DNA from: Halothiobacillus diazotrophicus
GTDB lineage: Bacteria; Pseudomonadota; Gammaproteobacteria; Halothiobacillales; Halothiobacillaceae
Direction: 5' to 3'
Length of the DNA: 64,000 nucleotides
Assembly (NCBI RefSeq): GCF_001663815.1
Contig: NZ_CP016027.1
Span: 1,178,001-1,242,000 of the forward strand
A program made the position numbers and the translations under genes. Position 1 is the first letter of the stretch, and every line of letters starts with the position of its first letter. Below the pieces are notes generated by a model. It ran no database searches and was not told where the DNA came from. It saw only the letters and a list, made by a program, of their open reading frames with translations. Below are positions 49,940-51,918 of this stretch, piece after piece.

Positions 49940-50363
49940 GGTCTTGCTCCACACCCGCCACGGCGGCGGGCTTCAAAATCTTGCTGTGCACTATACGGTA
50001 TTCGCCGGACGGTTTGACCTCGTGGGGCGGGAATTACCCGTCACTGGGGCGCATTTCTCAAACACAAGTCCGAGGCGGTCAGGATGAGTGATGGCTCGCT
50101 CATCCGTCGGATAACACTTCGTTGGACCCCACGCACGCAAGTCACCTTTGACGACACCTGCCGGTAAGCGACCGCCGAAAATAACGACCCGCAAGAATCG
50201 GGTCAAGCCGTCCCGACATCTCACGACGTGCCAGCGTCCAGGCCTGTCGGCCAGGAAAATCGCACCACAACGGCTTTTCTGCCCCGATGCATCCCGGCTA
50301 AAAAGCCTGCTACACTCCTGATACAAGAATTATACAAACCCGCCTTGGCAGACGCCGCACAGC
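49940..50363. other. Divergent control region of leuA and the LitR-like gene
   Basis: 424 bases without a gene. The leuA side has the hairpin and TATAGT element described under leuA. The middle is GC-rich and shows no feature I recognise. The plus-strand end carries the 11-bp direct repeats described at 50310-50337. Confidence 0.55.
50310..50337 (+). promoter_or_regulatory. Three TACA direct repeats spaced 11 bp: candidate LitR/CarH-type operator
   Basis: CTACAC (50310-50315), ATACAA (50321-50326) and ATACAA (50332-50337) place the TACA core exactly 11 bases apart, one helical turn, ending 26 bases before the regulator start. CarH/CarA operators consist of 11-bp direct repeats with an ACA core, and PplR sites in P. 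putida contain TACA halves. TATACA at 50331-50336 may also be the -10, so binding would occlude the promoter. Confidence 0.65.
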
Positions 50364-51386
50364 ATGAACGAGACGAAACAGAACGCATCGATGCCCGATG
50401 AGCCCCCCCTGGGGAACAACGGACTGTTCCCGATTCGTACGGTGGCACGTCTCACCGGCATCAATCCGATCACACTGAGAGCTTGGGAGCGTCGACATAA
50501 TCTGATTCGCCCGATCCGGACACCCTCGGGTCATCGACTCTACAGCACCGCCGACATCGAATTGATCCGACGCATCCAATCGCTCTCGGAGCAAGGCATG
50601 GGATTCAGCCAAATCGGCATTGTGCTGAAGCGAGAAGCCCGTCTGGCCGAACGGATGCAAAACAACAAGAGCGGCGCCTCGGAGGAACGATTCGCAGCAC
50701 CGCCCCCTGCCCGCTCCACGCCAGTTTCAGGTGGCATTCGCCGGAGCGCCGCAGCGGCTGTCGAGGCACCATCCGATACCCCGCCAACACTGGATGCCCT
50801 TCGGGCACATGTCCGGCAGGCCGCCATCGCGCTGGATGCTGATGCGCTGCAACAAATCGAGCGCAAGCTGCTGCTCTGGTATCCGCCGGAAACCATGATC
50901 CGTCTCTTTCTGATCGACGCCCTTCACGAGCTGGAACGACGGGAAATCTGGCCCGACCAGAACCTGGTCCTCCGTTGGCTGAGTGCGGAGATCCTGCGCC
51001 GGATCGATGGACTGCTTCACCTGCAGCCCACGTCTTCCGGCCAAATCATTGCCGTCGATGCCATCGATACGGACGGCTTTCTGCGGGCCGTCGAATTCGG
51101 GTTGATTCTCGCGCTCGCCGAACGCTTCACGATCCACCTGATCCCACAAACGTTCCCCGACGCCCTACGGGTGCGCCTGATTGCGCGCTGGAACATCACC
51201 CACTGGATCCGTTTGCAGCGAATGGACAGTCACGCCTACCAGACGCCCGCCACGCCAAACACGATTCGAATCCACCGCTGCCTGCTGATGGAAGGGGAAA
51301 CCCCGGTCGAGATTACGGAAACGGGGCTGTTTCGGGGTAGCGCGCATCACTGCCTCAGCCATTTGACCGAACAACTACACCCCTAA
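50364..51386 (+). CDS. MerR-family regulator of the LitR/CarH group, probably B12-independent (PplR-like)
   Basis: A 340-residue regulator. A MerR DNA-binding domain (FPIRTVARLTGINPITLRAW, then SGHRLYSTADIELI) occupies about residues 22-70. A Ser/Pro/Ala linker follows, then a helical domain (TLDALRAHVRQAAIALDADAL, WYPPETMIRLFLIDALHELE) and a Rossmann-like domain as in light-sensing CarH/LitR. The ExHxxG cobalamin motif is not seen at the expected place (IDTDGFLRAVEFG). That fits class II LitR, which relies on a separate LOV photoreceptor. A short LOV gene follows 64 bases downstream. Autoregulation through the upstream repeats is inferred. Confidence 0.8.
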   Translation: MNETKQNASMPDEPPLGNNGLFPIRTVARLTGINPITLRAWERRHNLIRPIRTPSGHRLYSTADIELIRRIQSLSEQGMGFSQIGIVLKREARLAERMQNNKSGASEERFAAPPPARSTPVSGGIRRSAAAAVEAPSDTPPTLDALRAHVRQAAIALDADALQQIERKLLLWYPPETMIRLFLIDALHELERREIWPDQNLVLRWLSAEILRRIDGLLHLQPTSSGQIIAVDAIDTDGFLRAVEFGLILALAERFTIHLIPQTFPDALRVRLIARWNITHWIRLQRMDSHAYQTPATPNTIRIHRCLLMEGETPVEITETGLFRGSAHHCLSHLTEQLHP

Positions 51387-51450
51387 CGGAACCTCCCGTC
51401 GCCGAAAGTTCCTGATATGATCGGCCAAGACCCATTGATTCAGAGAGCGA

Positions 51451-51918
51451 TTGCCGACGATGCTGGATCCGAAGTTACTGCTCAAGGCGGTGGAAGCGTC
51501 CCATGATGGAATAGTGATTGCGGAACGCGAGGGCGAGGACAATATCCTCATCTTTGCCAACGCAGCCTTCGAGCGACTGACGGGTTACCGTAACGACGAA
51601 ATCCTGTACCAGGACTGCCGGTTTCTTCAGCTGGACGACCGCGACCAGGAAGCACGCGCCGAAATTCGCGCGGCAATTCTCGGACACCGCCCCACCCGGG
51701 TAACGGTTCGCAATTATCGCAAGGATGGTACCCTGTTCTGGAACGAGCTCTCCATCACGCCCGTTTTCAATGAAACGGACCAACTGACCTATTTTATTGG
51801 CGTGCAGCGGGATGTTACCGATCTCGTCGCCATGAAGGCTGAAAACCTTCGGCTCAAGCAACGGTTGGCCGAACTCGAAAGCGGTATCTCGGAGACGTCC
51901 GAGCCTGACCAAGGATAA
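51451..51918 (+). CDS. Short LOV blue-light photoreceptor (PpSB-LOV-like)
   Basis: A 155-residue flavin photoreceptor consisting of one LOV-type PAS domain and a C-terminal helix. The photoactive motif is YQDCRFLQ with Cys53, followed by DDRDQ, NYRKDGTLFWNELSITPV and YFIGVQRDVT. These are the FMN-contacting stretches of P. putida PpSB1-LOV, including the same cysteine position. The coiled-coil tail (AENLRLKQRLAELE) would signal by dimer contacts, since there is no effector domain. With the preceding LitR-like gene it forms a likely light-response pair. Confidence 0.92.
   Translation: MPTMLDPKLLLKAVEASHDGIVIAEREGEDNILIFANAAFERLTGYRNDEILYQDCRFLQLDDRDQEARAEIRAAILGHRPTRVTVRNYRKDGTLFWNELSITPVFNETDQLTYFIGVQRDVTDLVAMKAENLRLKQRLAELESGISETSEPDQG

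Follow-up and report, generated by a model that had tools for sequence, protein, structure and literature searches.

What does the short repeat upstream of a LitR-like regulator gene in Halothiobacillus diazotrophicus do, and which genes does the regulator control through it? The gene lies next to that of a short LOV blue-light receptor, in a window (the whole stretch of DNA that was analysed) of 64,000 nucleotides. The features discussed here are:

50311, 50322 and 50333 (starts), plus strand: TACA copies 1, 2 and 3 upstream of litR, spaced 11 and 11 bp
50308..50316, plus strand: extended -10-like element TGCTACACT, containing TACA copy 1; putative promoter element of litR
50320..50336, plus strand: predicted operator core GATACA-N5-TATACA (copies 2 and 3), a CarH-type 11-bp direct repeat pair
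50364..51386, plus strand: litR, MerR-type regulator with a CarH fold and without B12-binding motifs (class II LitR-like; Pfam MerR_1)
51413..51421, plus strand: extended -10-like element TGATATGAT in the gap between litR and the LOV gene; possible separate promoter of the LOV gene
51460..51918, plus strand: gene of the short LOV blue-light receptor, with the photoactive Cys within YQDCRFLQ (Pfam PAS_9)

Three TACA copies upstream of litR

The sequence-only reading had pointed to three TACA copies at an exact 11-bp phase before the LitR-like gene, and this is confirmed, the segment being CTGCTACACTCCTGATACAAGAATTATACAAACC on the plus strand of the window. With up to one mismatch allowed, the three-copy pattern matches the window once (with 0 mismatches), while the mean in 100 shuffles is 0.01. 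Without mismatches it occurs once on both strands of the 2,908,964-base genome, and the reversed control gives 0. The same reading had proposed a scan for three TACA cores as a way to the regulon. The scan showed the pattern to be unique, but the strict triple was rejected as a probe since it finds its own site only; a relaxed two-copy form reached rpoS, see below.

The pattern was chosen post hoc. Period-11 triples of any tetramer are ordinary, with 2 on the plus strand of the window against 1.75 +/- 1.64 in 20 shuffles. Within the 100 bp 5' of the litR start codon such a triple appears in 0.185% of 20,000 shuffles, and a triple with any period from 5 to 20 in 2.7% of them. The TACA pattern by itself is therefore weak evidence; the case rests on comparison, and it becomes strong because the site is conserved in relatives. 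Copy 3 (TATACA) alone fits the published CarH repeat TnnACA, as copies 1 (GCTACA) and 2 (GATACA) carry G where that repeat has T, and three full TnnACA repeats are found nowhere in the window.

Conservation of the putative promoter-operator region

A search for litR in 57 genomes gave matches in 50, many of them with other MerR proteins only. The comparison set consists of 21 genomes: 10 from Halothiobacillus, the own genome included, and 11 from the sister genus Guyparkeria. Copies 2 and 3 are exactly 11 bp apart in all 21 litR upstream regions (TRCA-N7-TRTAC[A/G]), while the flanks are divergent. Seven regions have TACA as copy 2 and the other 14 TGCA; copy 3 reads TATACA or TGTACA in 20 regions, the single exception being TATACG. 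Among 12 non-redundant rows, most TRCA/TTRTAC positions reach 1.8 bits of information, whereas flanking positions mostly stay below 0.6 bit.

Copy 1 behaves differently from this pair. The distance of this TACA from copy 2 is 11 bp in 15/21 regions, 12 bp in a single one and 13 bp in three others; the remaining two have lost it (TAAG, TAAA) but retain TA...T: TGCTAAACT in G005 and TGCTAAGCT in G008. The literal triple at 11 bp occurs in 4/21 regions, so the three-fold phasing does not hold as a conserved trait. What is kept around copy 1 is GCTAnnnT, in all 21 regions, preceded by T (TGCTAnnnT) in 18. The earlier suggestion that the last copy overlaps a -10 had to be given up, since copy 3 is often TGTACA in the relatives, which is no -10, while copy 1 lies within the conserved GCTAnnnT. 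Copy 1 is thus better read as a -10-like element and copies 2 and 3 as the putative operator. No conserved -35 was seen upstream of litR in the alignment of the relatives.

On the minus strand, TTGACC-17-TATTTT (window 50206-50178) resembles a promoter for the divergent leuA-like gene (2-isopropylmalate synthase; named by eye), and a terminator-like stem lies beside it. At locus L156, from another genus of the family (G011), litR is divergent from a short-chain-dehydrogenase-like gene (named by eye) and the site (2337-2353) stands in between, where it could serve both genes.

LitR and its LOV neighbour

The structure model of LitR (pLDDT 84.0, pTM 0.61, from a 27-sequence alignment) consists of a winged helix, a four-helix bundle (predicted helices 143-155, 159-170, 175-192 and 199-220) and a mixed alpha/beta end. 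In Foldseek its 12 best matches are all Thermus CarH chains, and for the DNA-binding domain CarA and CarH are the nearest among solved chains. ExHxxG is a B12-binding motif of class I CarH/LitR proteins. Neither ExHxxG/DxHxxG nor Wx9EH is present in the LitR sequence, no Pfam B12 domain was found at E 0.01, and B12-binding_2 was not found. Wx9EH is a B12-binding motif of class I as well (PMC8156234).

LitR therefore lacks the B12 motifs ExHxxG and Wx9EH by which class I is recognised, but shares with that class the tandem 11-bp direct repeats of its predicted operator, as a pair in 21/21 litR upstream regions and as a triple at an oxidoreductase gene. With class II it shares a MerR helix-turn-helix and a four-helix bundle with the B12 site lost, as judged from the predicted fold and the absent motifs, and an adjacent short LOV gene, as in pmlR2 of P. 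mendocina. The N12 site published for Pseudomonas class II is not enriched in the own genome, and this trait is perhaps not family-defining. The own genome encodes four MerR_1 proteins, and the LRAWERR-type helix is found in LitR only; the other three have LRYWEQE, LRYYERL and IRFYQRK.

The LOV protein has 152 aa, contains DCRFLQ and matches only PAS-fold models in Pfam. It is thus a LOV core with the photoactive Cys and without an effector domain, as expected of a short LOV protein. Its nearest solved structures are of short LOV proteins and include 7r5n, 29lw and 3sw1, all named 'Sensory box protein' (E 6e-53 to 1e-49), of which 3sw1 is presumably PpSB1-LOV. Each of the 21 Halothiobacillus and Guyparkeria genomes has a YQDCRFL frame in the neighbourhood of litR (in G005 on the other contig piece, L004). 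The gap between the two genes contains TGnTATGAT in 9/10 Halothiobacillus loci, with TGTTATCAT in the tenth, and in 1/11 Guyparkeria loci; judged from this element, the LOV gene may be transcribed from its own promoter.

A relaxed motif and its putative targets

In the own genome the exact pair core is found only before litR and before rpoS. With one mismatch allowed there are 38 matches (20+18) against 57 (30+27) for the control, i.e., the core is not enriched, and exact matches alone were therefore used as evidence. The published N12 site, with up to one mismatch, occurs in 3 places against 3 for the control; showing no excess in the own genome, it was rejected as a regulon probe.

Across 27 genomes of the family, the motif RTRCANNNNTTRTACA gives 87 matches (84 places, as three palindromes are counted on both strands) and the reversed control 3. 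Matches 5' of litR, rpoS or a flavin oxidoreductase gene make up 64 of the 87: 23 at litR (22 genomes), 30 at rpoS (19 genomes) and 11 at the flavin oxidoreductase (10 genomes). The sequences of one family are not independent, and these counts are not probabilities. The claim of a regulon is nevertheless supported by the control pattern, by the divergent flanks and by the fact that the rpoS sites are missing in other genera.

The other 23 matches speak against the regulon, several of them lying in coding sequence. PAS-domain chemotaxis receptors are encoded close to four of them (L144, L146, L147 and L148; the receptor identified in three, a trpB-like gene on the other side in two), and light might perhaps also steer behaviour through these 11-bp repeat sites. 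In L136 and L137 the match precedes a trpB-like gene (trpB named by eye) by about 170 bp. The remaining 17 are mixed, many within coding sequence. Matches in frames resembling sufC (3 genomes) or RelA/SpoT (2), both named by eye, and several further ones were set aside as conserved coding sequence or chance.

The flavin-containing amine oxidoreductase-like gene is present in 16/27 family genomes and absent from the own genome. In Guyparkeria loci it adjoins, divergently, a photolyase-related gene (DPRP). By eye, its 16 upstream regions contain TGTGCA-N5-TGTACA-N5-TATACA or close variants in nine Guyparkeria rows, two to five tandem repeats in six Halothiobacillus rows and a repeat pair in the single row from a third genus. 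The tandem repeat triple, with up to one mismatch, has 11 matches in 10/27 family genomes and none in the control; nine are at the oxidoreductase and two near chemotaxis-receptor genes. Together with the pair at litR, these three tandem repeats bear out the CarH-type 11-bp operator register that the sequence-only reading had recognised. The oxidoreductase frame has one internal stop in L167 (G003) and L169 (G006), with four to five tandem repeats upstream nonetheless.

In P. mendocina, the light-induced units include one with cryB and nine genes from PME6650 on, among which are phrB and a flavin oxidoreductase gene (PMC9758184). These oxidoreductase and photolyase-type genes are likened to those found here by gene type, and this ties the motif to LitR.

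The rpoS sites

The second exact core in the own genome is:

G000:C1:2492217: TGTACATAACTTGTACA, before rpoS

This distal pair begins 169 bp 5' of the start codon, and a degenerate pair, TGTGCAAGATTTGTACG, lies nearer to the rpoS start. The rpoS product scores above both NCBIfam RpoS cut-offs (415.2 against 394 and 401.8 against 378.7), and the gene upstream, with LysM and M23 domains, we take to be nlpD.

When degenerate positions are allowed, the proximal pair is present in all 20 Halothiobacillus and Guyparkeria genomes in which rpoS was found and the distal pair in 17, G025 being the eighteenth by the exact motif. At least one exact motif stands at rpoS in 19/20, and the flanks of the pairs are divergent. 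G026, the one further genome from these genera, is 64% complete; it has no rpoS match and is outside the 20. Elsewhere in the family, rpoS is present in five genomes from other genera, and in none of them does the exact motif stand before it. Moreover, 13 rpoS upstream regions, from 15 genomes reached through other litR loci (one family genome repeated), contain no TRTACA and no pair at the published spacing; two degenerate 11-bp matches were found in them. From these distributions, it looks like the link between LitR and rpoS has arisen in Halothiobacillus and Guyparkeria.

Repeat spacing in different lineages

In published CarH operators the 11-bp repeat nnnnTnnACAn stands in tandem, three times in Thermus and four times in Bacillus (PMC9304148, PMC8156234), while the Pseudomonas class II site is TRTACA-N12-TGTAYA with an 18-bp spacing (PMC9758184). 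In 76/80 loci, among the matches listed, T[GA]TACA pairs upstream of litR number seven at 11 bp and none elsewhere in the range of spacings from 6 to 33. Thioalkalivibrio loci account for five of these pairs, and no such pair stands upstream of litR in the Pseudomonas rows among the matches listed. In 59 Pseudomonas-group loci, published-form pairs occur in five places at 18 bp and one at 11 (counted by place), and plain T[AG]TACA pairs four times at 18 bp and three times at 11. The usual spacing of the half-sites thus seems to differ by lineage, the Pseudomonas numbers being small.

Proposed mechanism and alternatives

We suggest that the segment is the operator and promoter of litR, that LitR represses its own gene from it in the dark, that the LOV protein releases it and that LitR also acts on rpoS; we give this reading a probability of roughly 0.78. 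RNA polymerase would be placed by the -10-like TGCTACACT with copy 1, and LitR would bind the adjacent copies 2 and 3, which cover the predicted start region, and so repress litR in the dark. On the model of the homologous pair in Pseudomonas, blue light would be taken up by the LOV protein, which would bind LitR and free the operator, without B12. Through like repeats LitR would control further genes, and in relatives genes against light damage would also be released when LitR is removed. As the only other exact site in the own genome is before rpoS, blue light is predicted to raise RpoS, repression of rpoS being assumed.

From its conservation and position, the 11-bp repeat element is very probably the site of LitR control over its own gene, and autorepression, as the sequence-only reading had predicted, is plausible. 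Repression is preferred to activation because of the position of the site at litR and because characterised regulators of this kind are repressors. In P. mendocina, lit PmSB-LOV releases PmlR2 from DNA in vitro, with gel-shift and surface-plasmon results that disagreed (PMC9758184). There, the LOV-adjacent pmlR2 and the LOV gene are nearly constitutive (1.4-1.5 fold for pmlR2), while pmlR1 is light-induced (PMC9758184); this weakens the case for autorepression by the LOV-adjacent regulator.

That the equally spaced TACA triple arose by chance and has no function is scarcely credible. The window does have about as many period-11 triples of any tetramer as its shuffles (2 vs 1.75), but chance would not be expected to hold copies 2 and 3 at 11 bp in 21/21 genomes amid divergent flanks, or to give 87 motif matches in the family against 3. 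The element could also be a real operator of another protein, one with sites upstream of litR, rpoS and the oxidoreductase gene; there are three other MerR_1 proteins in the own genome, and other regulator families may come into question as well. We find this unlikely, as the helices of the other MerR proteins differ, and as TGTACA or GTACA half-sites are bound by class II LitR and BluR, and TnnACA by CarH (PMC9758184, PMC3509220, PMC9304148). Moreover, 11-bp TGTACA pairs before litR are also found, among the matches listed, in the more distant Thioalkalivibrio.

Alternatively, LitR may activate some promoters, rpoS included, as MlrA does at csgD (named its activator in PMC3509220), and rpoS would then fall under blue light. 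In the own genome the start of the distal rpoS pair, 169 bp 5' of the coding sequence, is at a distance where activators often bind. However, CarH, CarA, BluR and PmlR2 are repressors in the cited literature, and at litR the pair lies just 3' of the -10-like element, which is the position of a repressor; activation is thus rather doubtful. It is very improbable that LitR itself is a B12-dependent photoreceptor of the CarH kind. CarH is its nearest fold over the full length and the repeat period is that of CarH, but ExHxxG/DxHxxG, Wx9EH and a Pfam B12 domain are all missing, and the LOV frame accompanies litR in every one of the 21 genomes. We therefore retain LitR repression with release by LOV. 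In its more specific form, the short LOV receptor of Halothiobacillus and Guyparkeria would remove a B12-free repressor of CarH fold from the 11-bp repeats before rpoS and in this way control rpoS transcription; this we consider somewhat favoured by the evidence.

Relation to known light-responsive systems

The closest parallels are the class II LitR and short LOV pairs PmlR2/PmSB-LOV of P. mendocina and PplR/PpSB-LOV of P. putida. As at the locus described here, a MerR-type regulator that lacks B12 motifs is encoded next to a short LOV protein, the half-sites resemble TGTACA, and the putative targets include a flavin oxidoreductase gene and genes of photolyase type. However, their published spacing is 18 bp (N12), while tandem 11-bp direct repeats are found here, with rpoS as a further putative target. 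Among the matches listed, the openly available literature, P. mendocina Table S1 left out, contained no precedent for a LOV/LitR link to rpoS.

With CarH of Thermus and Bacillus and CarA/CarH of myxobacteria, LitR has in common the winged-helix DNA-binding domain, the overall predicted fold and tandem 11-bp TnnACA-type operators that overlap the promoter. CarH senses light through AdoB12 and controls carotenoid genes, whereas LitR has no B12 motifs and the LOV protein is the likely sensor. The BluR/BluF system of E. coli also has a MerR-like repressor with GTACA half-sites that is released by a blue-light receptor; however, that receptor is a BLUF-EAL protein and the target ycgZ-ymgABC, both unlike the situation here.

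The comparison indicates that the 11-bp register of CarH is kept by a family member which is B12-free and linked to a LOV protein. It joins the B12-dependent CarH operators with the LOV-dependent class II LitR proteins, whose published spacing is another. Stress responses driven by LOV proteins exist in other bacteria, and blue light may turn on the general stress response via rpoS in the two genera, judging from the positions of the motif. If the reading of the rpoS sites is true, this would be a gammaproteobacterial counterpart of such LOV-driven responses, in sulfur-oxidising chemolithotrophs. The analysis thus predicts the targets of a LOV receptor in sulfur-oxidising bacteria, rpoS included, through which blue light would act directly on the general stress response.
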